A stretch of 34,188 nt of DNA from a virus (IMGVR_UViG_3300017613_000460:1-34188); one strand, 5' to 3'. Shown: positions 11,646-23,913, numbered from the stretch's first letter. Program-made: numbers and translations. Notes: generated from the sequence alone by a model not told the origin.

Positions 11646-11679
11646 AAAGCCAGACTGCTACAGGTAGCAGTCTGGCTTT
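11646..11679. terminator. Bidirectional terminator at the convergence point, built on palindrome copy 9
   Basis: A perfect 16-bp stem surrounds the core element (11653-11672). On the plus strand it is followed by five T after the stem, and on the minus strand by TTTATTTTA, so it can end transcripts from both blocks. It lies between the last plus-strand gene and the last minus-strand gene, where two-way termination is needed. The outer pairs AAAGCCA/TGGCTTT are specific to this copy. Confidence 0.9.
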
Positions 11680-11702: not shown

Positions 11703-12035
11703 TTAGGGTGGTGATGTAGTTGCCAACGTAGTGGGTGCCAACGTAGTGGGTGGCGTGGTAGTTAACAACGTAGTAGGTGGTGTCGTAGTTAACAACGTAG
11801 TGGGTGGCGATGTCGTAGGTATGACAAAGTCACGTTCAAACAACTGTCGAGCCATTCGATGGATTAAGTTTTCAAGTCCTCGCTCGTCAGTAAAATCTAC
11901 ACCGTCGTCGAATACAATGGCAACATGAGCCGCATCAACAGTATTGGCAACTGTTTCTGTTCCTGCCAAATCTTCGATTTCGAAATTTCTTTTATTCTGG
12001 TCAATAGTTCCAGAAATAATTATTGATCCTCCCAT
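11703..12035 (-). CDS. Small protein with Thr/Pro-rich mucin-like tail
   Basis: The 110-residue product has a strong ribosome site (GAAAGGAGAACAG). Residues 1-73 form an apparently folded, acidic domain of unknown family, starting MGGSIIISGTIDQNK. Residues 74-110 consist almost only of Thr, Pro, Leu, Ala and Ser, in units such as PPTTLLTTT and APTTLATT with a 9-residue period. No signal peptide is present. The gene is the last of the late operon and follows the glycosyltransferase by 15 nt. Thr/Pro repeats of this kind are classic acceptors for mucin-type O-glycosylation, so the tail may be the enzyme's substrate. It could also be an unmodified stalk or linker. A related repeat lies in the tail nozzle. 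Confidence 0.75.
   Translation of the reverse strand: MGGSIIISGTIDQNKRNFEIEDLAGTETVANTVDAAHVAIVFDDGVDFTDERGLENLIHRMARQLFERDFVIPTTSPPTTLLTTTPPTTLLTTTPPTTLAPTTLATTSPP
11706..11816 (-). repeat. Imperfect 27-bp tandem repeats coding the Thr/Pro tail
   Basis: Units related to GTTAACAACGTAGTAGGTGG (plus strand, first 20 of 27 nt, at 11761 and 11788) repeat about three to four times. One unit is 30 rather than 27 nt long, and all keep the reading frame. Unit number is likely to vary by slippage or recombination. Confidence 0.75.
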
Positions 12036-12050
12036 TTCTGTTCTCCTTTC

Positions 12051-12995
12051 TTAAGTTTCCCAAGGTTCCGAATTTTCCAAAAATTCAACTTCGTTGATTT
12101 TGTCTTTTTCTAATCGCCTCCTTTCATCATTAGCGAGTTTCTTAGCAAGTTCTAAATGTTTAAGAATATTAACTTTATTCCTATCTTCCATAAATGCAAT
12201 AAAATCTTTCCTTTCAAACATATAGTCTGCTCCGAGTGCTCGTAAAGAAACTAAAAATCCGAGCCACGGAAAGTGTGTACCAGAGTGAGAATACACTCTG
12301 TACTTATGGAATTTTCTTGCAATTGCAGGAAAGGGACCAAGATGTATAACAGGTCGAGCAGGAACCGCCCAATTTTCATAGCCCAATACCCAAGATTTTA
12401 GTCCTAAGTGCATATCCCCGCCACCCCAGGCAAGGCGGTGTTGAGATAAAGCACCGTACCCTTGAAGTTCATTTAAGAACCAGTCTCGTTTACAAATCCA
12501 AGGCATACCTTTCCATGATATTTTTCTTTCATGAGTATACAAACCGCCCCAAGTTCCAAAGACCTTAGCCATGTTATGACGAGATCTATCCTCATGGTGG
12601 GTAAACCAGTTAACTGGGGCATGAGCAAAACCTATCTTCCGATGCTCATTTCTTTCCATAAATTCAACCAAGTCAGCAATAACTCTATGACCAAATAAGC
12701 AATGCGAATCCACGCATACTATATATTTACTGCTTGATTCTTTTATAGCTGTTTCTCTTGCCGTAAAAAGGCAAGGATAGTCTTGTCGAAACATTTTGAT
12801 CTTTGGTTTAGGGCCAGTCATATAGCCTGTAGGTAAGATAGCGTTTCTACAATCCCAAATCTCTTTATCCGAGTTATCAACAATAACCACTTCCCCATCA
12901 TTTGAAAGTGGAACAAATTCTTCAATGGCCGATCTTACAGTAACTGTAAGCATAGCTGTATCATTTCGGTTTGCTATAATAACTGATACTCTCAT
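12051..12995 (-). CDS. GT2 glycosyltransferase resembling polypeptide GalNAc-transferases
   Basis: This 314-residue GT-A fold enzyme begins MRVSVIIANRND (nucleotide-sugar binding strand) with VIVDNSD at 37-43. The metal-binding motif is DSH at 96-98 in YIVCVDSHC. In family GT27 (polypeptide GalNAc-transferases) the equivalent is LDSHCE, where Asp and His bind manganese. WGGGDMHLGLKSWVLGY starting at 190 matches the WGGEN-x-E-x-SFRxWxCGG Gal/GalNAc-transferase motif in position and pattern, and PVIHLGPF (216-222) parallels the SRVGHVFR segment. There is no signal peptide or membrane anchor and no lectin domain, so it acts in the cytoplasm. It precedes the Thr/Pro-repeat protein in the operon. 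Substrates could be that protein, the nozzle repeat, or a host glycan. The donor sugar is unknown. Confidence 0.82.
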   Translation of the reverse strand: MRVSVIIANRNDTAMLTVTVRSAIEEFVPLSNDGEVVIVDNSDKEIWDCRNAILPTGYMTGPKPKIKMFRQDYPCLFTARETAIKESSSKYIVCVDSHCLFGHRVIADLVEFMERNEHRKIGFAHAPVNWFTHHEDRSRHNMAKVFGTWGGLYTHERKISWKGMPWICKRDWFLNELQGYGALSQHRLAWGGGDMHLGLKSWVLGYENWAVPARPVIHLGPFPAIARKFHKYRVYSHSGTHFPWLGFLVSLRALGADYMFERKDFIAFMEDRNKVNILKHLELAKKLANDERRRLEKDKINEVEFLENSEPWET

Positions 12996-13207
12996 TTAGC
13001 TTCTTCTTTCGGCGGAAGGGGAGACTGTTTTAAGAACATTGCGGCTGCTACAATAGCACTGACAAGAGCTACCATCCCAAGTTTTCCAATCCCCTCCTCA
13101 AAATTGAAAGACGTTGGTTCAACAATCATGACAGTTACACTATTCGCCGCTCCGCCAATGACCGCACTTATCAGTCCTCTAATCCATTGAGTCGTTTTCG
13201 GTTTCAT
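12992..13207 (-). CDS. Holin-like membrane protein (71 aa)
   Basis: Two hydrophobic segments (about residues 8-30, LISAVIGGAANSVTVMIV, and 43-60, LGMVALVSAIVAAAMFL) flank a short acidic loop, and a Lys-rich tail ends the protein. This is the size and layout of small phage holins, and I recall similar unannotated phage proteins beginning TTQWIRGL. The start overlaps the upstream gene by 29 nt, and the stop overlaps the glycosyltransferase start (ATGA type). It belongs to a compact three-gene membrane or lysis cassette. No endolysin gene was recognised nearby, so the lysis role is inferred. Confidence 0.65.
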   Translation of the reverse strand: MKPKTTQWIRGLISAVIGGAANSVTVMIVEPTSFNFEEGIGKLGMVALVSAIVAAAMFLKQSPLPPKEEAK

Positions 13208-13468: not shown

Positions 13469-13684
13469 TTATTTTAGATAACCTCGCATAAAAATTATTG
13501 CCAGCCCCACAACGACGGGGATCGCTCCGCCAACCACGCCCCAAATACCCGCCTTTACTTTAAGAATAGCAATCTCAACTCTTACTTTAGCGCACTCTGT
13601 ATTAAGTGCTGTAGTACAATGATCCAGTCGTTCAAGTTCTTTAAGAACGTGTTTAGACCATTCAGTCCAACCATTAGTTCCCAT
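13469..13684 (-). CDS. Small coiled-coil protein with C-terminal membrane anchor
   Basis: The 71-residue product begins with an amphipathic, coiled-coil-like stretch (WTEWSKHVLKELERLDHC, then VRVEIAILKVKAGIWG) and ends in one membrane segment (VVGGAIPVVVGLAIIFM) and a short basic tail. This layout resembles XhlA-type haemolysin or holin-associated proteins. Its start overlaps the cupin stop as TAATG. Together with the following two genes it forms the likely lysis cassette. Confidence 0.65.
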   Translation of the reverse strand: MGTNGWTEWSKHVLKELERLDHCTTALNTECAKVRVEIAILKVKAGIWGVVGGAIPVVVGLAIIFMRGYLK

Positions 13685-14237: not shown

Positions 14238-15185
14238 TTATAGCCAGGGTTTAAAGTCAAACTGTGCTAAAAAAGTGCTACTGCCAGGGTGTACAGCCAT
14301 CACACCCAATTGACCTGAACCATCTGCCATAATTTCGATTTCTCCAGGTCCTAATAATGTCCAATCCCCATCAACAGCTGGCTCACTTGTAGCATAGTAG
14401 GTTTTAAAATTACTCCCTTCTCGTTCCATCCGTACCCAAGCAGGATTCGTAGTGGTATTCTTAGCAGTTTCAGATAATGTAGATCTTTCCCTACTTATAT
14501 CTGTATCTCGCCGTTGAAAACTTTGTTCTATTTCATTATCGTAACGTGTTAAGATTAATACACTATCTCCATTACTATGCTGATAAATAATACCTGCTTG
14601 CCGGTACTGTTCAGTAATTTTATCAGTTGTCACTTTAGCGTAAAAATCGAAGTTTCCTGTTATTGTACTATGTTGCCAAGTAGGTGAAAACGAACCACCC
14701 CAAACATCACCCCCACCACTCTGTAAGGTAATAAAGGCAGGGTTAGGATTAGCACCCACATGAAGATTGGTGGGTGGTAAGTATTTTGACGGTGGAGGTA
14801 GTTCTTGAAAGAACTCAAAGGGTTGTGGAACATAAAGTGTATTTGTGCTATCACTCCAAGTTTTTTCGCTTTCAGTAGTAAGTGGAGAATCCTCTTTGAA
14901 AGCAGAAACACCGACATGATAAAAGATCCCCTGTGCCGGTAAACCCACAACCCAGGTTAGATCTTTAGTTTCACCCAAGAGCAGTATATTAGGTTCTCCG
15001 ATTTTATTTTTTAAATAAATCCTGTATTTAAGAGTATCAGGATCAATAGCATTTCCGTTAATATCTTCGGTAGGTGCGTCCCAATAAACCGGCGTGTTAT
15101 TGGGGACTGTCACCGTTTCCGCCATTGCCGGGACTGCCATTAACAACGCCAGTAGTACTGCTAAGACCAATAAGCTTTTTTTCAT
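14238..15185 (-). CDS. Secreted protein with C-terminal lectin-like (DUF1349-type) domain
   Basis: The ATG at 15185 follows AAAAGGAGGAACAAG; a longer open frame to 15263 would bury the export signal behind 26 charged residues. Residues 1-22 are a Sec signal peptide (MKKSLLVLAVLLALLMAVPAMA) with an Ala-x-Ala cleavage site. A fibronectin type III-like unit (PVYWDAPTEDINGN to VGVSAF) follows, then a Pro-rich link, and a beta-sandwich with GNFDFYAKVT, QAGIIYQHSNGDSVLIL and WVRMEREGSNFKTYY, resembling DUF1349/concanavalin-like glycan-binding domains. It is 315 residues long. It is expected in the periplasm or outside the cell, which is unusual for a gene in a phage late operon. Its 5' end overlaps the HTH gene by 89 nt. 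Confidence 0.78.
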   Translation of the reverse strand: MKKSLLVLAVLLALLMAVPAMAETVTVPNNTPVYWDAPTEDINGNAIDPDTLKYRIYLKNKIGEPNILLLGETKDLTWVVGLPAQGIFYHVGVSAFKEDSPLTTESEKTWSDSTNTLYVPQPFEFFQELPPPSKYLPPTNLHVGANPNPAFITLQSGGGDVWGGSFSPTWQHSTITGNFDFYAKVTTDKITEQYRQAGIIYQHSNGDSVLILTRYDNEIEQSFQRRDTDISRERSTLSETAKNTTTNPAWVRMEREGSNFKTYYATSEPAVDGDWTLLGPGEIEIMADGSGQLGVMAVHPGSSTFLAQFDFKPWL

Positions 15186-15504
15186 CTTGTTCCTCCTTTT
15201 CTTTTTTAATTCTTCTTTTTCTTTCATTAATAACCCTTGATATATAAGTTCTTTGCATTCCAAGTGCTTCTGCAGTTACTATTTGATTACCGAAATGACT
15301 ATATATTGCAGCAATGCAATTTTGTTTAAAAGCCTTCAAGCCTATCCTGAGGATTTCCTGAACTATAGGCCGGTAATCTAACTTCTTTCCATTGAGAGGT
15401 TCTTTGTCATCGTCACGATCAATATCTACAAATTGACGCATATTCCCATTCCCATCAACATGGATTTCTTGTCTAAATTTAAAACCTTCATTAGTATTTT
15501 TCAT
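15097..15504 (-). CDS. Fis-like helix-turn-helix DNA-binding protein
   Basis: Residues 50-97 (EILRIGLKAFKQNCIAAIYS, then HFGNQIVTAEALGMQRTYIS and RVINERKRRI) resemble the Fis or NtrC C-terminal helix-turn-helix, a helical dimer and HTH unit that ends in a basic helix. The tail is Gly/Ser/Asn-rich and apparently disordered; it is read in another frame over the signal peptide code of the next gene. The start overlaps the lipoprotein stop as TAATG. It is the only clear small DNA-binding regulator in the window. It is a candidate late regulator and a second candidate binder of the dispersed palindromes, although Fis-type sites are usually degenerate. Confidence 0.7.
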   Translation of the reverse strand: MKNTNEGFKFRQEIHVDGNGNMRQFVDIDRDDDKEPLNGKKLDYRPIVQEILRIGLKAFKQNCIAAIYSHFGNQIVTAEALGMQRTYISRVINERKRRIKKEKEEQDEKKLIGLSSTTGVVNGSPGNGGNGDSPQ

Positions 15505-15914
15505 TAGTATTTTACTTTCCTTTTCCAGTCACTTTCGATAGCCCAATCAAATTGTTGCTCCATGTAGCTCCTCACACTTTTGTACCCAAGAGGTTCAAAC
15601 CAATTATGTCTCTGGCAAACGTAAACATAATCTTCAGCTACACATAGAGCCTTCCATTCACCCTCAATCTGTGCTTCAGCTTGAGCGTGCCAAGCTTTTG
15701 CCTTGTAAGAAGGGCCACTGATAATTCTAACCGGATACTCTTCCCCCATCACAATAGCTGCGTAAACAGCACTATGCCTACACTCTCCCCGAATAGACTG
15801 ATTAGCACACCCACTGAACAACATCATAAAAATTACAGTTCCAAAAAACAATACGATGAGTAATAAAACCTTTATTAACATCTCCGCTTTTTTACCTTCA
15901 ATAACTACTTTCAT
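15504..15914 (-). CDS. Putative lipoprotein with transglutaminase-like cysteine peptidase fold
   Basis: The start follows AAAAGGAGGAGGAATT. A hydrophobic segment (residues 13-33) ends in LFSGC with C36, a lipobox-like site for lipid attachment in a Gram-negative envelope. The remainder, GECRHSAVYAAIVMGEEYPV with C45 and KAWHAQAEAQIEGEWKAL with H76, follows the transglutaminase-like pattern: Cys in a helix, G-x-PVR strand, then His before a Trp-containing strand. A third residue could be E94 or D95. Phage lipoproteins often act in superinfection exclusion, but a cysteine-peptidase-like one is not a type I recognise. Lytic activity against cell wall is possible but unsupported. Confidence 0.65.
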   Translation of the reverse strand: MKVVIEGKKAEMLIKVLLLIVLFFGTVIFMMLFSGCANQSIRGECRHSAVYAAIVMGEEYPVRIISGPSYKAKAWHAQAEAQIEGEWKALCVAEDYVYVCQRHNWFEPLGYKSVRSYMEQQFDWAIESDWKRKVKY

Positions 15915-15931
15915 AATTCCTCCTCCTTTTG

Positions 15932-15951
15932 GATTGCTACCTGTAGCAATC
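15932..15951. repeat. Dispersed palindrome, copy 10
   Basis: The perfect form GATTGCTACCTGTAGCAATC fills the 36-nt gap between the large secreted protein and the lipoprotein ribosome site. On the coding strand its first G is the last base of the TAG stop, the same arrangement as at 34108-34127. Confidence 0.88.
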
Positions 15952-18900
15952 TATGGTGATCCACCGATGGCGTCAATCTCGGTAGCGGTTAAAACTTTCG
16001 GAACTATTAACATATCTGAAAAATAAGTTGGTCCTCCAACAAGATAACCAAATTGCATTTTGGCCGCAGCGGCCGCATAGTCACCGTCGAAGTCATCAGG
16101 CGTTCCCCACGTGAACCCACTTCCGTCATCATAACCGACATTCATAGTATTCGTTCCGGTTTCCCATTTGACACCCATCTTAATCCAACTATTAGCGGCC
16201 CAATTTGGATCAATCTCGGCCCTTGTAGATGGGCCTGAACAAAAAGAAGCAAGCACATCATTAGTCCCTCTATACCACAGAATATTAGAATGTGAGTTAG
16301 CCATTGACATTACAGACAAATAGGGCCATCCTGAGGCGGCTAAAGTTGCTTGAGAATAAGTCGGATACAGCCAAATAATAAGAGTTCCAGGTTGCCCTGA
16401 TACGGGGGTGACTAAAGGAAAAGTCAAACCCGTTGCTCCACCACTACTTTCCTCGGTCAACCTCCCCTGGCCCATCTTCTTGACTGCTATATCGTCAACC
16501 GTCCCGTTCCAGGAGTCGTCAAACACAACTTTTAGGACGTCGTTGTCAGTCGCTGTGACGTAGTCGTAATACGTTCCGTCAGCAGAAATGGTTTCTCCAA
16601 CGGTACTCCCGTACTCCATATGATAAGACCCGCCATCCGTGTCCTCGTCGGCGGTATGGGTGATCTGATAAATGTAACCGGCAACGGGCTTTTCGTAGAT
16701 GGAGAGGTTTTCGATTGTACCTGACCAATTGACACCAGCAGATCCGGTATTGTATCCAACAACCCCGATATGATCGTGGGTGTGATCCATCGTAAGTGTT
16801 TCTGATATTGTTTCAACCAGTGTAGTTCGGGCAGCATCGGAGTAAATGTCAACATACATGGTACCAGGAGAACCGCCGACACACCTAATAGTTAAATAAT
16901 AGGTAGTATTTGGTGTTAATTCGGCTGAGGAAGAAGGATTACTTAAAACACCATCGTCTATCTCATAGATAGCAATATCATTAGTCATCCAAATAAAAAC
17001 ACCATGATGTGTTGCCCCGCCTGCAACGATGTTTGCCAGATCGTCATCTTCGGAGCATATTGCCCATGGAGCTATCCCACCTGATCCGACTACGGCTGTG
17101 TATTTAGTATCTACATAATGAGTAAAATTAGATGTGGTATCAAAGTAATCTGCAGCACCCATGTCTCGCAACTTATGAATATCAATTGCTCTTGTCATAG
17201 TCGTAGCGGTAATAGTGTTACCATCTGTAACAACTAATGTGCCAGGAAAATCAGCAGCCTCCCAACACGGCTTGCTCCAGTCCATGTAGGACTGTTCAAC
17301 GGTTATAGTATCTGTCTGATCTCCAGTAACCGTTACGGTGTCTGCAGAGCCAGTATGCCCTACATAGTCACCTTCGTTCCAGTCATCAGGGGTGACTTCC
17401 TTTAAACTTAAGTTATCAAGCCAGCAACATTCTCCAACGGACAAATCGATAGTGTTAAGAGCCACACCGTTTGGCGTCCCTGATGCATCCCGACAGGTAA
17501 AGTAAAAAGTATATGTATCAAAGGTTGTACCAGTTACTGCTTGATATACAGTTCCACCTGAGCTGTCATAAAATCTTAAATTGAGAGTGTCTCCAACGCC
17601 CTTTTTAGCGTCCACTTGGAACCTATATCTCTTCCCAACAACCATGTCGGCTGACAAATCATCAGAGTCCGAAAAGTAAATAAACGCTCCTGATGCATTA
17701 TCAACATAGGTTATTTTTAATGAATTAGCATCATTAGAAATAGTGTTATTTGCTGATTTTGTCCATCCATAAGTCCCACTCGGAGCAGCCTCATCGTCTG
17801 CCACGGCAGCATCCGTTAACCCACTTGTTGAAAGTATCGTTGTCGCACTGGCAGCTGCCTCTGTAGTGATAATATACTCCCCACCGCCAGAAAAAACCAA
17901 TTTGGTACCAACTACAAGTTTAAAGGGGATAGCATCAACCGTCATGCTATTGGTTCCTATGATGTAGCCAGCCCCGTTGTTAATTGTAACATTGCTGCTC
18001 GTAAATACAGATGCAGCAGAATCCCATAGCTCATCCCCAAGCGTACTGTTAACAAAACCACCATCCACGACCTGGTCACCGCCAAGCACGACTCCATCGT
18101 TGTCAACGTAGGAGGAGGGGAACTTCTTGTTGTATTCAAGTTGGGCGCAGTCAACGATAACAGATCCCGTTTCGGTTCCATCACCTACGCTCGTTCCATT
18201 TGTACTGGCTGCAGGGAAAATAGCATATTGTACTTTTTCATTAGATCCGTCACTGTCGGCCCCAGAAACCCATACTCTCAACCAGTCTCCAACATCAATA
18301 CAGCCTGTAGACACCCCTGTTGCTTGTGTAACAGTGGCGTAGTTTGAAACAACTCCTGTATTCGTATTGATAAAGGACATTGCATAGTTAACTGTTCCAC
18401 CTTCATGAAAAGTGATCCCAAACAAAGGGAAGGTAGTTGCACCAGTTGTCTTTTTTATGTATATAGAACTACAGTAATAAACTCCATCGCCGACTGTGAC
18501 ATCTAAATGCTGTCTAATCCTATAATAATCACCAGAGTCAGAATCGGTATCTCTTATCGTGGTTGCCTTATTGGCTCCTCCATCAACCCCTGTAGCATTT
18601 TGGCTTGCCGTTCCCTCATCCTGTGAACTCCAATAAGTGGAACCACTATCTATATTTCTTGAATCCAACAGAAGATTCTCCCCCTGTGGTTCAATACGTA
18701 ACGCCCGTTTTCCCCCGACCCACTCATAAATCGGCTTGGTATCATCTGCTTCGAATTGCATCACCCCGTTATCTATATAGGAACGTGATGCGGCGCTGGT
18801 GTAGGTGAATGTTCCTTCATTGCTTTGACTACCCTTTGTTATTAAAGGATTTGTACTATTCGCAGCAAATTTCCATACTGCGCCTATACCTGCAGTATTA

Positions 18901-19001
18901 AGAGAATAGAAACCCGTTCCCCAGTATAGATCAAGAACTCCGGCTGAGACGCCTATCGTGAGTGTTAGTATTAATACTAAAGATAATAATATCTTTTTCA
19001 T
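15951..19001 (-). CDS. Large secreted multidomain carbohydrate-binding-like protein (1016 aa)
   Basis: Residues 1-20 (MKKILLSLVLILTLTIGVSA) form a clear Sec signal peptide. After it come jelly-roll and laminin-G-like parts. The first (about 107-305, opening ENLLLDSRNIDSGSTYW, then YYCSSIYIKKT and DWLRVWVSGA) is the glycan-binding module common in phage tail fibres. A second (WTKSANNTISNDANSLKITY to CCWLDNLSLKE) is CBM4/9-like. A middle concanavalin-like part and a C-terminal LamG-like part (GTLIIWLYPTYS, ANSWIKMGVKW) complete it. Content suggests a receptor-binding or fibre-type protein, but export would remove it from cytoplasmic virion assembly. It lies three genes after the T7-type fibre adaptor. 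It may be a soluble glycan binder, a surface decoy, or a fibre with a misjudged hydrophobic start. Confidence 0.8.
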   Translation of the reverse strand: MKKILLSLVLILTLTIGVSAGVLDLYWGTGFYSLNTAGIGAVWKFAANSTNPLITKGSQSNEGTFTYTSAASRSYIDNGVMQFEADDTKPIYEWVGGKRALRIEPQGENLLLDSRNIDSGSTYWSSQDEGTASQNATGVDGGANKATTIRDTDSDSGDYYRIRQHLDVTVGDGVYYCSSIYIKKTTGATTFPLFGITFHEGGTVNYAMSFINTNTGVVSNYATVTQATGVSTGCIDVGDWLRVWVSGADSDGSNEKVQYAIFPAASTNGTSVGDGTETGSVIVDCAQLEYNKKFPSSYVDNDGVVLGGDQVVDGGFVNSTLGDELWDSAASVFTSSNVTINNGAGYIIGTNSMTVDAIPFKLVVGTKLVFSGGGEYIITTEAAASATTILSTSGLTDAAVADDEAAPSGTYGWTKSANNTISNDANSLKITYVDNASGAFIYFSDSDDLSADMVVGKRYRFQVDAKKGVGDTLNLRFYDSSGGTVYQAVTGTTFDTYTFYFTCRDASGTPNGVALNTIDLSVGECCWLDNLSLKEVTPDDWNEGDYVGHTGSADTVTVTGDQTDTITVEQSYMDWSKPCWEAADFPGTLVVTDGNTITATTMTRAIDIHKLRDMGAADYFDTTSNFTHYVDTKYTAVVGSGGIAPWAICSEDDDLANIVAGGATHHGVFIWMTNDIAIYEIDDGVLSNPSSSAELTPNTTYYLTIRCVGGSPGTMYVDIYSDAARTTLVETISETLTMDHTHDHIGVVGYNTGSAGVNWSGTIENLSIYEKPVAGYIYQITHTADEDTDGGSYHMEYGSTVGETISADGTYYDYVTATDNDVLKVVFDDSWNGTVDDIAVKKMGQGRLTEESSGGATGLTFPLVTPVSGQPGTLIIWLYPTYSQATLAASGWPYLSVMSMANSHSNILWYRGTNDVLASFCSGPSTRAEIDPNWAANSWIKMGVKWETGTNTMNVGYDDGSGFTWGTPDDFDGDYAAAAAKMQFGYLVGGPTYFSDMLIVPKVLTATEIDAIGGSP

Positions 19002-19010
19002 TACAAGCTC

Positions 19011-19514
19011 CTATCGTCTGTGAATAACACCTATGTAAAGAGTATAACTATCTCCAGTGCTGCCGAAATCATTTAAAAGAAAATAGTCGTCGTTTTGAAC
19101 ATCCATAAATTCAACACTATGACCGTCAGCTACTTCTACTTTAATGTGCGAATCCGTAGCGTAACCTGCCATAACTGGTATTTTCAAGGCATCTGCTCTT
19201 GTATACCAACTTATCTGTACAGCCGTAGAAGGAGCAGCACCACCAGTTCCAGGATCTGCAGAAACCCAAAGAAGCATACCATTTAGAGCAAGTCGTATCG
19301 CACGAGTATACGTTGCAGCAGCGGCAGCTTTTATATCCGCCATAGATATTTCTTCCGCAGAATCATCATCAGCACCGAGAGTTACAGTTAAAGCTATAGT
19401 AGCAAAACCGTCTCCTTGGTCTGAAATAATTGCGCTAAGTGTATAAGCTGCATAACTCGGGACTGCTACCAGTAGCAATCCAACCATAATTAAAATACTA
19501 ATAAATTTTTTCAT
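19011..19514 (-). CDS. Small secreted protein (167 aa)
   Basis: The ATG at 19514 is preferred because GGAGGG precedes it closely; another ATG at 19526 overlaps the upstream stop but lacks a ribosome site. The product opens with a signal peptide ending VAVPSYA before YTLSAII. The mature part is probably beta-rich, with a helix-like ADIKAAAAATYTRAIRL segment and an Asp/Gly-rich end. No family recognised. It sits directly between the fibre adaptor and the large secreted protein, and both secreted genes are 9-12 nt from their neighbours, so the three are probably co-translated. A palindrome copy lies in the signal peptide code. Confidence 0.68.
   Translation of the reverse strand: MKKFISILIMVGLLLVAVPSYAAYTLSAIISDQGDGFATIALTVTLGADDDSAEEISMADIKAAAAATYTRAIRLALNGMLLWVSADPGTGGAAPSTAVQISWYTRADALKIPVMAGYATDSHIKVEVADGHSVEFMDVQNDDYFLLNDFGSTGDSYTLYIGVIHRR
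19461..19480. repeat. Dispersed palindrome, copy 11 (inside signal peptide code)
   Basis: The core arms are perfect, with one outer wobble. On the coding strand it reads GLLLVAVPS, a different frame from the other coding copies, and it makes up the hydrophobic core of the signal peptide. Confidence 0.85.
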
Positions 19515-19525
19515 TGTTCCCTCCA

Positions 19526-20020
19526 TTAAGTTAGATCATCTGTTGTAAGTATATAACTTTCTTCATCAGTATCACCCTTCAAACCTTTGTTATCAACAGG
19601 ATCAGGGAGGTAACCCAATGTCATTTCTGATCCTGGAGACAATTTAAGACATCTATCAATTTGTTCCTGCTGTTGCTTCAAAATCATAATGATCTTATCT
19701 AATACATCTTCATGAGATTCTGCAGGAAAAGCACCACCAGCGATATAGTCTGCTGCTTGAGTAAATGGTACATTGTATAGTATTACAATTCTCTCATCAG
19801 CAGCAGGTGGCGTAACCATAACAATATTACCACCAGACTGATCATCTACACCACTTACCGTATAGTGAGTAGTGAGAGTCTGCACTACTTCCGTATCGTC
19901 ATTCTCAATAAGAATTACTTGTATGTGTGTTTCATCTTGTATTTTAAAAGAAAAAGCGAATGTATCTTCAGAACCCGTACCGTCATAGCCATTACGTTTA
20001 TTTTCATTACTTACTGTCAT
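19526..20020 (-). CDS. T7 fibre-type adaptor (N-terminal tail fibre domain only)
   Basis: The 164 residues match the N-terminal domain of T7 gp17-type tail fibres: TFAFSFKIQDETHIQVILIE, then HYTVSGVDDQSGGNIVMVTP, then RIVILYNVPFTQAADYIAGG and FPAESHEDVLDKIIMILKQQ. This is the virion-docking part that attaches to the tail. The usual distal coiled coil and receptor domains are missing, and the protein stops soon after a short linker. It therefore probably acts as an adaptor for separately encoded distal parts, which could be products of the next genes. Ribosome site ACGGAGG precedes the ATG. Confidence 0.88.
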   Translation of the reverse strand: MTVSNENKRNGYDGTGSEDTFAFSFKIQDETHIQVILIENDDTEVVQTLTTHYTVSGVDDQSGGNIVMVTPPAADERIVILYNVPFTQAADYIAGGAFPAESHEDVLDKIIMILKQQQEQIDRCLKLSPGSEMTLGYLPDPVDNKGLKGDTDEESYILTTDDLT

Positions 20021-20031
20021 TTTATCCTCCG

Positions 20032-23000
20032 TTAATAATCGTCGTCCATTTCTCTACGTTTTACCATTATATCCCACCAAGTATAATCTGGATTTTCTTC
20101 TTGGTTCATTAACCCTTTCATGATTGTAATAGATTGAGCAGTAGGAAGTCCAGTTGCGTAACCCACAGTACTAATAAGAGGAAAGAGTACTCCTTTATCT
20201 GTTTCAGGGTCACCATCTATTTTAGATAGAACACCCGTACCTAACTTTACAATTTCTTTGGGTACATCTTCCATCGGAGTTAACTGATATGGGTAACCCA
20301 TAAACATAAAACTGGCTATATCACGAAATATAGGAAATCCACCTGCTCCGTGAGTCAGCATAACTGGAAGTAAGTCTTCTTTTTTGACTCCTCCTTCTCT
20401 AATTGTATGCGCTGCGAGTGCGGGAAGCATTATATAATATAACATATCAGAAGATAGTCTGAAAAAGTTAATATCTTTAGCTCCATACCGCATAAGACTT
20501 TCAACTATTTGGTTTTGGAGAACAGAAAAATAAGAATAAAACATTGTAATCGCACGTTCGAATTCATTACTTCTCATAATTCGAGGAAGATCTTTAGCTG
20601 AAGACTGAGGCTGAGTAACTCGTACAGCTTGACTTGCGTATTCCAAAGCACTGTCTACGTTTCCTTTAAAAAGTTGCATACCTTTTTTATGGCCCGCAAG
20701 CCAAGCAGGATAAGAACCGAATTGATCCATTATCCGAACAGTAGAAAAAAAGAAATTTCTTAACCGAGGATTAATAAATATACCTTTGTATGCTTTACCT
20801 TTTTTAGGTAAACCCAATAATTCACGTTGAGCTAATTGGAAATCTCGGTCTATATGATTTGCTCGATATCTCATTTGGGGATCAATATCGTTTACTGCTT
20901 TAATAACTTGAGCAGGATTTGAAGCAAATTCTGCTATAGCTACAATGGTATTTTTTAGTCCATTCCGAGGGACTGAACTTATCACTGAGAGAGGTTGAAC
21001 AAATGCTGTTGTAAGCTTCATGCCCAAATTTGCAACAGTAACATTACCTCTTAACTGACGCAACCACTTTGGTCCTTCAAGGTCAGGACGTGCTATATTT
21101 TTAAGCCAAGGATCGAATTGTTTGTAAATATGTTTTCCGAGTGTAGACTCAACAACCTTCCGAAAGTTTGCATTTCTAACAATTTTTTGGACTTCATTCA
21201 GAGGTTTATGATGAGAACTATAATGAATAGTTTCCCGTAAATGTCTTGCGAGTACATCAAAATCTAATCTGAGAGCAGTTGTTCCACCGTGTCGAGGTAT
21301 TGTAAAACCTTTTTGAACCGACGCCCAATACTGACTTGCATTAGTATTTTTAAATAAATCTGTCAGTTTTCTGTCAAGATTTTTAAATTCAAAATCTTGC
21401 ATAATAGGCATGTACTTACCTTCAACTTTTACTAAGTCAACACCGGCTACCTCTTTATATATTTTATTGAGAAGAGGATAAAAGTCCTCCATCAACTGCC
21501 AGAGATCCTCAACTAATTGTAAATCTTTTTCGTTCAAGAAATCATCAAGAAATTCGTCTAATATTTTTTCGTTAAGTCGAGGTTTGCCTTCACTTAAACC
21601 GTGAAGTAATACTTTTTTCTGTTCAGGATTACCCATGTACGCTTTCATCATAACTGCGTGTTCTTTTTTAACTGGAGCACCCATTAATTCTGCTGTTTCT
21701 CCCCAATACCCATACTTACCACCATGTTTTGTAAATAGTTTATCTAACCGATTAATAGTTTTTTCACTTAAAGCATTTTCTAAATTTTCTGCATCAACGA
21801 AAGGTTTAAGTATTGTACGCCACATACGTCCTAAAGGTTTAAACCCATCTAAGGCTTCAACAATTTTCTCCATACGTGCAGTATGCGCTAAATACCTACC
21901 AAATAAGTCTGCAATTTTTTCCTTATTCTCAGCAAGAAAACTTTTAGCCGGTTCTGACAATGCCTCAAGTTGTGTACGGGAAGGAACTATCCCTTTATAC
22001 AGTGTACCTGAATTACCAAAAGTTCGAGTAGCTGTGATATGAACAGTGTCAATAATATCATCTATCAACTCACCCTTAAGAAGGTGTGTAGCATTTTTCT
22101 CTACCAAACCTAATTTATGAAAAGATTTTATTATTTCTCTAAATCTTTCTAAATGATTATAACTAAGATCTTTAAACTCTCGACCTATAATATGACTCAT
22201 TATTTTTGTAAACTCATCGCTTATAATCCCTGCGTCTAAGATTCCGTCTTCAACTTTAGTTTGGAGGAACTTATATATACTTACCTGTGCGTCTGGCACG
22301 TATTTAGATGTCTGAAAAAAAGGTTTGAGTAAAGCTTTAAGTTGAATTTTATACTCAGTAGGTAAACTTTTAGTTTTTAATAAACGCTTTAACTCCATTT
22401 TCCATCTTCGAACATCTTGAGCACGCCTATAAGTTCTTTGCAAAGCCATGCGAGTTTCAATTTCTCTTATTCGTAAACGAATCGCTCCTATCTTATTACC
22501 TTTTTTGAATGCACGGCCAACTCCTCTATGTATCAAACTAATAGAGTTCTTTAAGGCTTTTACGTCATCAAGAATTTCACCTACTTGTTCTTTAGGAACT
22601 TTCTTAGGAATTTTAGTACGTTTTGAAACACCTAATACTTTTTCAAGATACTCTTTTTCTTTTTCCAGAATTTTTTGTGCCCACATTTCTTGAAAAACTT
22701 CACTCCAATCAGCTGATGTACGATTAGCAATTCTGTTAACTACTTGTTTAAGTGTTTGAGCTGAAGCCAGGTCTTGAAAAAAATCTAATGGCGCACCATA
22801 TTTAAATAACCGCATCATTTTAGATGCTTCCGTTAAACCTTCAGGATGAAATAACTCAGGGTGAGATCGTAATATTTTGTCCTTTAAATTTTTAGGTATA
22901 TCATAAGTGTCAAATATCTTTAAACTCATTCTATAGTTATTTTTAAGATACTCAATCATCTGAGTATGAGGTAGGCTTTCATACTCCATTTTAGCTAAAC

Positions 23001-23913
23001 GAATATTAGATGCTTTTCGAACTTCTTTAAAACCTTCCCAAGCAGCTTTGTACGTTTCAGCTTGAGCCAATCGCTGAATATCTTCATAATCATCCTGTGA
23101 CAGTTTATCTATACTTTTTTTAGCGAGATCACCTAATTTCTTCTGTAATTTTTTTATGCTCTCAGGTATCTTATCAGCATACACAACTTGTTCATGAGGT
23201 ATTTTATTCTTCTCAAACTCTTTACCCATAGCTATATGAATACGTTCAATCCAAGTATCCGCAGCTACTTCATCTCCGACATCTGCTTTGTACGCATGAC
23301 GTTCTAACTCCTCTAATATTTCTTCGGAAAAATGTTTACTACCAGAATTTGTAATACCCTGCGTGGTCTTCTTAAAAAAATTAGGATTAATTTTGTTAAT
23401 ACCTTTAAGCGTTAGTCTTTCTAACCCCGCTTCTAAAGTTACAGCACTTCCTATTCCGCCCAAAACAGAAAGACCTAAAGCAGCAAGAGGATGTCCTGCT
23501 TCTTCAAGACGATCAGCAGGTATTTGTACTGCAGCTTCACCTACTAAAGCAGTTCCAGTTACTACCATTGACCGTGTTAAAGCGTTAAGGATAGAATGGG
23601 TACCCATTCGTAAAGAATGATAAAAAATTCCTGGCCCTACTCCAGTTGCCATCATGAGTGGGTCGAAAAAAGGAATTTGTAGTCCTCCCCCTTCCATCGC
23701 TAAACCTTCCTCTACAGTTAACCCGCCGTATCTTCTTTCACCTGTACGTGCGTCATAGGTTACTATACGTCCTTGTTCATCATAGTCTGCCGGAGGAATA
23801 TCAGAAAGAACAGGAGTGTGGTATAGTTCTTGTTCTCGTTCTAATTCGTCATTTTGGACTGTCATACCCTGTTCTCTTCGCCTGTCTAACATTTTTTTAA
23901 TTAAAGGGTCCAT
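20032..23913 (-). CDS. Large internal virion / ejection protein (1293 aa)
   Basis: Its size and position between the other internal proteins and the fibre adaptor match the large internal core protein (T7 gp16 place). I see no lysozyme-type transglycosylase motif at the N-terminus. Residues about 85-165 hold hydrophobic Gly/Ala-rich stretches (ALVGEAAVQIP, LAALGLSVLGGIGSAV). A long Lys/Glu-rich helical body follows. The end, with VLFPLISTVGYATGLPTAQS and YTWWDIMVKRR, resembles C-termini of large phage internal proteins. It should travel with DNA into the cell. Its start overlaps the preceding stop (TAATG). Confidence 0.8.
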   Translation of the reverse strand: MDPLIKKMLDRRREQGMTVQNDELEREQELYHTPVLSDIPPADYDEQGRIVTYDARTGERRYGGLTVEEGLAMEGGGLQIPFFDPLMMATGVGPGIFYHSLRMGTHSILNALTRSMVVTGTALVGEAAVQIPADRLEEAGHPLAALGLSVLGGIGSAVTLEAGLERLTLKGINKINPNFFKKTTQGITNSGSKHFSEEILEELERHAYKADVGDEVAADTWIERIHIAMGKEFEKNKIPHEQVVYADKIPESIKKLQKKLGDLAKKSIDKLSQDDYEDIQRLAQAETYKAAWEGFKEVRKASNIRLAKMEYESLPHTQMIEYLKNNYRMSLKIFDTYDIPKNLKDKILRSHPELFHPEGLTEASKMMRLFKYGAPLDFFQDLASAQTLKQVVNRIANRTSADWSEVFQEMWAQKILEKEKEYLEKVLGVSKRTKIPKKVPKEQVGEILDDVKALKNSISLIHRGVGRAFKKGNKIGAIRLRIREIETRMALQRTYRRAQDVRRWKMELKRLLKTKSLPTEYKIQLKALLKPFFQTSKYVPDAQVSIYKFLQTKVEDGILDAGIISDEFTKIMSHIIGREFKDLSYNHLERFREIIKSFHKLGLVEKNATHLLKGELIDDIIDTVHITATRTFGNSGTLYKGIVPSRTQLEALSEPAKSFLAENKEKIADLFGRYLAHTARMEKIVEALDGFKPLGRMWRTILKPFVDAENLENALSEKTINRLDKLFTKHGGKYGYWGETAELMGAPVKKEHAVMMKAYMGNPEQKKVLLHGLSEGKPRLNEKILDEFLDDFLNEKDLQLVEDLWQLMEDFYPLLNKIYKEVAGVDLVKVEGKYMPIMQDFEFKNLDRKLTDLFKNTNASQYWASVQKGFTIPRHGGTTALRLDFDVLARHLRETIHYSSHHKPLNEVQKIVRNANFRKVVESTLGKHIYKQFDPWLKNIARPDLEGPKWLRQLRGNVTVANLGMKLTTAFVQPLSVISSVPRNGLKNTIVAIAEFASNPAQVIKAVNDIDPQMRYRANHIDRDFQLAQRELLGLPKKGKAYKGIFINPRLRNFFFSTVRIMDQFGSYPAWLAGHKKGMQLFKGNVDSALEYASQAVRVTQPQSSAKDLPRIMRSNEFERAITMFYSYFSVLQNQIVESLMRYGAKDINFFRLSSDMLYYIMLPALAAHTIREGGVKKEDLLPVMLTHGAGGFPIFRDIASFMFMGYPYQLTPMEDVPKEIVKLGTGVLSKIDGDPETDKGVLFPLISTVGYATGLPTAQSITIMKGLMNQEENPDYTWWDIMVKRREMDDDY

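Follow-up and report, generated by a model that had tools for sequence, protein, structure and literature searches.

The metagenomic virus contig IMGVR_UViG_3300017613_000460:1-34188 (34,188 bases; this whole record is referred to as the window) carries a rightward set of early genes, including those for an exonuclease, a single-stranded DNA-binding protein, DNA polymerase, an endonuclease, a helicase and a primase, and a leftward late operon that converges on them at a terminator. The late operon encodes, in order, the portal, a protease-like/scaffold protein, the major head protein, tail tubes A and B, internal virion proteins and a giant internal virion protein (IVP). Downstream of the giant IVP are a tail-fibre adaptor, four genes with export signals and an HTH-like gene among them, a cupin gene, likely lysis genes, a glycosyltransferase gene and a gene for a 110-aa protein. 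Judging from the portal, T7-type tail-tube and internal virion proteins, the phage is a podovirus, in agreement with the initial annotation, which had placed the four proteins within the late operon of a short-tailed phage; it is also apparently lytic. The portal resembles those of Pelagibacter phages, and the IVP is nearest to that of vir555 (BK063671) and then to that of Pseudomonas phage AF, with others also matched (tblastn). A terminase gene could not be recognised in the window, so the contig probably lacks part of the genome. The features considered here are as follows.

20032..23913, minus strand: giant IVP, upstream of the adaptor; phrog_9880, E 2.1e-84; query for finding relatives
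19526..20020, minus strand: tail-fibre N-terminal anchor ("adaptor"), 164 aa; phrog_1640 tail protein, E 2.3e-38, residues 1-123 against a 765-position profile
19011..19514, minus strand: predicted exported protein 1, 167 aa; Sec signal peptide about 19449-19514, cleavage MKKFISILIMVGLLLVAVPSYA/AYT; ribosome-binding site GGAGGG; no known domain
15951..19001, minus strand: predicted exported protein 2, 1016 aa; Sec signal peptide about 18942-19001, cleavage MKKILLSLVLILTLTIGVSA/GVL; ribosome-binding site AGGAG; in the fibre/spike slot
15504..15914, minus strand: predicted exported protein 3, a 136-aa lipoprotein; ...VIFMMLFSG/CANQS, lipobox FSG/C at residue 36, signal about 15810-15914; ribosome-binding site AAAAGGAGGAGG
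15097..15504, minus strand: 135-aa cytoplasmic protein with an HTH-like segment, between the export genes; from ORF and translation, with weak sigma-factor HTH similarity (E 0.04)
14238..15185, minus strand: predicted exported protein 4, 315 aa; Sec signal peptide about 15120-15185, cleavage MKKSLLVLAVLLALLMAVPAMA/ETV; ribosome-binding site AAAAGGAGG; DUF1349 (concanavalin-like) C-terminal domain, match just under cut-off
11646..11679, no strand: terminator with a 15-bp stem where early and late genes converge, closing the late operon; from a terminator scan

Export signals were evaluated with a rule-based scorer that considers a positive n-region, a hydrophobic h-region and either an AxA-type cleavage site or a lipobox Cys. 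All four export genes were positive, whereas none of the remaining genes of the window and none of 364 further in-frame starts passed. The proteins at 19011-19514, 15951-19001 and 14238-15185 scored as Sec (SPI) substrates and that at 15504-15914 as carrying an SPII lipobox, exactly as the initial annotation had proposed, with correct coordinates and frames. Composition-preserving shuffles of the four N-termini passed the scorer in 0.35-7% of cases, and among genes upstream of the tail-fibre slot in IVP-related viral loci, 0/282 and 1/262 were positive. Strong, purine-rich ribosome sites with normal spacing precede all four start codons, so the starts that include the signal peptides are the genuine ones. 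The reading frame of 14238-15185 is open to 15263 from a TTG; the AAAAGGAGG site belongs to the ATG at 15185. The signals are well supported from the sequence, and from them we infer that the four proteins are exported across the inner membrane by Sec.

Family assignments are sparse. The earlier suggestion that two of the proteins contain lectin-like domains held in part: the C-terminal domain of 14238-15185 nearly reaches the Pfam cut-off for DUF1349 (PF07081; E 1.7e-7, 31.5 bits against a gathering cut-off of 32.4), whereas the 1016-aa protein has no significant family match. No significant match was found for the 1016-, 167- and 136-aa proteins in Pfam, PHROGs and NCBIfam, nor for the 1016- and 136-aa proteins among PDB sequences, and no close relatives of the four were present in the viral contigs or phage records searched. 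The 1016-aa protein is repetitive, beta-rich and tail-appendage-like, with jelly-roll and LamG-like stretches recognisable by eye only; modules of the DUF1349 and jelly-roll-like kinds bind carbohydrates in general. Structure predictions from single sequences were of too low confidence to add to this (pLDDT of 42 for the mature lipoprotein and 32 for the mature 1016-aa protein). The lipoprotein also has a transglutaminase-like pattern by eye (GEC..A...PVR..G...HAQ.E..I.GEW, with the Cys at the acid position). Its assignment as a transglutaminase-like cysteine peptidase was rejected, as the pattern was seen by eye only, with no library match.

The adaptor at 19526-20020 is homologous to the N-terminus of the 400-1200-aa fibres of most relatives and lacks the C-terminal receptor-binding part that these carry. 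Elsewhere, the phrog_1640 anchor is fused to that part; in the window it stands alone and is absent from all of the exported proteins. To place this arrangement, relatives were fetched by means of the IVP (80 and 77 viral loci), and 98 distinct loci entered the adaptor comparison. Most loci found in this way have a full-length 400-1200-aa fibre in the adaptor position and no adjacent exported protein. In the window and five relatives, on the other hand, the receptor-binding-protein slot, which there follows a short anchor, is filled exactly by an exported spike or fibre. Beyond the short adaptor, no other spike- or fibre-like gene lacking a signal peptide was recognised in the window, in vir555 or in contigs G001, G002 and G003.

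The closest named relative by IVP, vir555, encodes proteins of 768, 241 and 524 aa with signal peptides (the last apparently a beta-helix) and a 133-aa protein with a hydrophobic N-terminus (genes 00056-00059). Like the export genes of the window, these form an exported fibre/spike-like run directly behind the phrog_1640 protein, although the proteins are not homologous to those of the window and the adaptor is longer (321 aa). The adaptors of vir555, G001 and G003 have a small C-terminal domain of their own, which could bind the receptor. Since vir555 and contig G003 both have comparable sets, the earlier remark that no such cluster was known does not stand. Further examples include spike-like proteins with signal peptides directly after a short adaptor in L052 (633 aa) and L068 (440 aa), a 374-aa fibre-like protein with a signal peptide behind a short adaptor in L036, and, in L121, a 605-aa beta-helix spike (beta-helix E 1.2e-5) that follows a short adaptor and has a lipobox (LVG/C), which implies that this spike is membrane-anchored. 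Vibrio phage 1.021.A likewise has a short phrog_1640 adaptor followed by a separate gene, there a beta-helix spike, but unlike that of the window it has no signal peptide.

A large gene with a signal peptide or lipobox occurs in the adaptor run of 5/17 genomes with adaptors below 360 aa (6/17 with L036) versus 1/81 with longer ones (Fisher p 5e-4 to 7e-5), where the 360-aa threshold was chosen after the lengths had been seen (they show a gap at 357-433 aa) and a separate spike gene shortens the adaptor by definition. Given that the following gene is at least 300 aa long, the counts are 5-6 of 13 short-adaptor versus 1 of 18 long-adaptor genomes (p 0.06 to 0.012). Among 30 further whole records not chosen for genes with signal peptides, only G045 encodes a credible exported protein of 250 aa or more (329 aa), so the trait is a minority one and not a group-wide artefact. 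Several signal-peptide calls in relatives were dropped as i-spanins, wrong starts or wrong-strand ORFs.

The interval between the capsid and tail-tube genes is a second place for exported fibre-like genes. The whole records of L068 and L121 have a second fibre-like gene with a signal peptide there; genes of this kind lie at 22619-24577 in L180-L182 (record G003; 648 aa) and at 18095-19369 in L177 (record G002; 423 aa). Small late proteins of 107-110 aa with signal peptides and a GPCYAPEF/GVYPCWEK motif are encoded near the lysis genes of two related phages (L070:15069-15413 and L075:14136-14504).

Pseudomonas phage AF encodes a member of a separate, conserved family of exported fibre-like proteins. 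AF_025 (AFV50639.1; phrog_31472) is a 340-aa protein with a signal peptide and fibre-like repeats; its C-terminal domain shares homology with the end of an Erwinia Ackermannvirus tail fibre that has no signal peptide. The signal peptide is kept in all 15 distinct members found, at roughly 50-96% identity; its letters vary while charge and hydrophobicity are retained. AF_025-type genes are present in AF-like podoviruses, in the P22-like AH02 and in an HK97-type genome, where the gene lies between the major head protein and portal genes, and they sit at arbitrary places in structural operons. This distribution across podovirus, P22-like and HK97-type genomes indicates that the family moves independently of virion type. 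These comparisons provide direct evidence that exporting a fibre-like phage protein is a genuine trait under selection, at least in this family, and that it is not bound to a single virion architecture. AF_025 and AH02_17 resemble the window proteins in their late region, Sec signal, tail-fibre-like character and proximity to a tail spike gene. However, there is no sequence homology, AF_025 coexists with a full-length tail spike in AF, and both proteins carry only a hypothetical-protein annotation. The window proteins gave no phmmer match to AF_025 members at E 0.05 and lack the conserved C-terminal domain that marks the family (motif VCYEGSF...CR...IPAGK); thus, they are not members. In two loci, a second gene with a signal peptide (134 aa; L095:3413-3817 and L097:3417-3821) lies just upstream of the AF_025-type gene.

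We tentatively favor, as a possibility that falls somewhat short of probable, the interpretation that the four proteins are envelope or extracellular glycan binders of the infected cell that mask or trim receptors and counteract re-adsorption. They would be produced late and moved over the host inner membrane by Sec, and may derive from tail-appendage and glycan-binding modules. Their place of action would then be the envelope or the exterior of the infected cell, not cytoplasmic virion assembly, with the lipoprotein 15504-15914 presumably anchored in a membrane. There, they would most likely bind, mask or trim the surface glycans that virions use as receptors, which would leave fewer progeny re-adsorbing to the dying cell and its debris and prevent a second infection. 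In favor of this role are the lipidated spike in L121, a lipoprotein encoded in the window itself, an AF_025 family that is independent of virion type, and T4 Spackle as a precedent. Spackle (gp61.3) has its signal peptide cleaved, is periplasmic in the infected cell and acts against secondary infection (PMC7650644). Like the window proteins, which are predicted to be exported, Spackle is a signal-bearing phage protein, although it is only 97 aa long, binds the gp5 lysozyme and is not fibre-like. T5 Llp-type superinfection-exclusion lipoproteins are made in infected cells and mask the phage receptor; they share with the window set a phage lipoprotein but are small and have no fibre domains. 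What Llp-, Cor- and Spackle-type exclusion proteins have in common is that they are exported phage proteins made in infected cells, a trait that applies to the window proteins by prediction only. In a diderm host, a Sec substrate stays in the periplasm unless carried further, which counts against this reading. No enrichment in cysteine, which would have hinted at folding in the periplasm, was detected in the proteins with signal peptides relative to fibres without them (median 0.74% versus 0.99%, p 0.37).

Against the glycan-binder reading, the 1016-aa protein occupies the receptor-binding slot of a phage with an adaptor devoid of the receptor-binding part, and nothing else was recognised as a receptor-binding candidate; on this point, a virion role fits better. 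The exported spike or fibre may be the only receptor-binding protein of the phage, folding in the periplasm and docking on the short adaptor at lysis, which we consider somewhat unlikely. In addition to the position of the 1016-aa protein and the part missing from the adaptor, late docking is consistent with the concentration of large exported genes in short-adaptor genomes and with the lack of a recognised signal-less spike or fibre in the window, vir555 and G001 to G003. That concentration is tempered by the post hoc threshold and by the shortening of adaptors that separate spike genes entail. Moreover, the spike of L121 is lipidated, most contigs, and probably the window as well, do not cover a complete genome, and the small domains on the adaptors of vir555, G001 and G003 could themselves bind the receptor. 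We know of no precedent for Sec-exported tail spikes on virions, and in the literature, where access to subscription papers was partial, no paper describing Sec signals on tail fibres or spikes was found. The glycan-binder and late-docking readings could both hold, for different proteins of the set. The non-virion role put forward in the initial annotation, with decoys, exclusion factors or free binders as candidate functions, is upheld as far as export is concerned, by the signal peptides of all 15 AF_025 homologues and the L121 lipobox, while its premise that virion proteins must stay in the cytoplasm is not secured and the receptor-binding slot is occupied.

It is distinctly unlikely, in our estimate, that the genes are moron-like accessories encoding exported lectins, adhesins or glycan enzymes for nutrient gathering, surface attachment of the infected cell or matrix modification. 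DUF1349 and jelly-roll-like modules would suit such roles, glycosyltransferase and cupin genes share the late operon, and AF_025-type genes occupy arbitrary positions, but late expression in an apparently lytic phage leaves little time for a benefit to the cell, and the placement of the four proteins in the tail-fibre slot points to adsorption. Finally, that these are ordinary virion proteins whose hydrophobic N-termini merely resemble signal peptides (for example, docking helices) would agree with their location among virion genes and with the hydrophobic N-termini of some phage appendage proteins, yet it is highly improbable given the positive n-region, uninterrupted h-region and AxA or lipobox site in each, the near absence of positives among other structural genes, and the charge and hydrophobicity kept throughout the AF_025 homologues.

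Considered together, the sequences suggest that the sugar-binding "feet" of some phages are made in copies that leave the infected cell. If such exported fibre-like products do form a class, the phages' own glycan-binding modules would reach the envelope or the space outside it through the host Sec system. This would explain part of the unassigned genes of late operons, provide exclusion or anti-readsorption factors of a new kind and call into question the assumption that all tail-operon products are virion parts. Because the AF_025 family occurs in culturable Pseudomonas phages, the idea is testable now. A stronger proposal, which we regard as unlikely, is a class of phages in which all receptor-binding spikes are Sec-exported or lipidated and the virion carries the short adaptor only, the spikes docking after lysis or staying in the envelope. 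In either case, such phages would route tail-spike biogenesis through the host secretion pathway, for which, to our knowledge, there is no described example among tailed phages.

Within the late operon of the window, neither an endolysin nor a spanin pair was recognised; small membrane proteins with a holin/XhlA-like look are encoded at 13469-13684 and 12992-13207. The last late gene (110 aa; region 11703-12995) has a mucin-like Thr/Pro repeat end (TTSPPTTLLTTTPPTTLLTTTPP...) and adjoins a GT2 glycosyltransferase gene (12051-12995, E 1e-11), a pairing that makes phage-encoded glycosylation of a phage protein possible.
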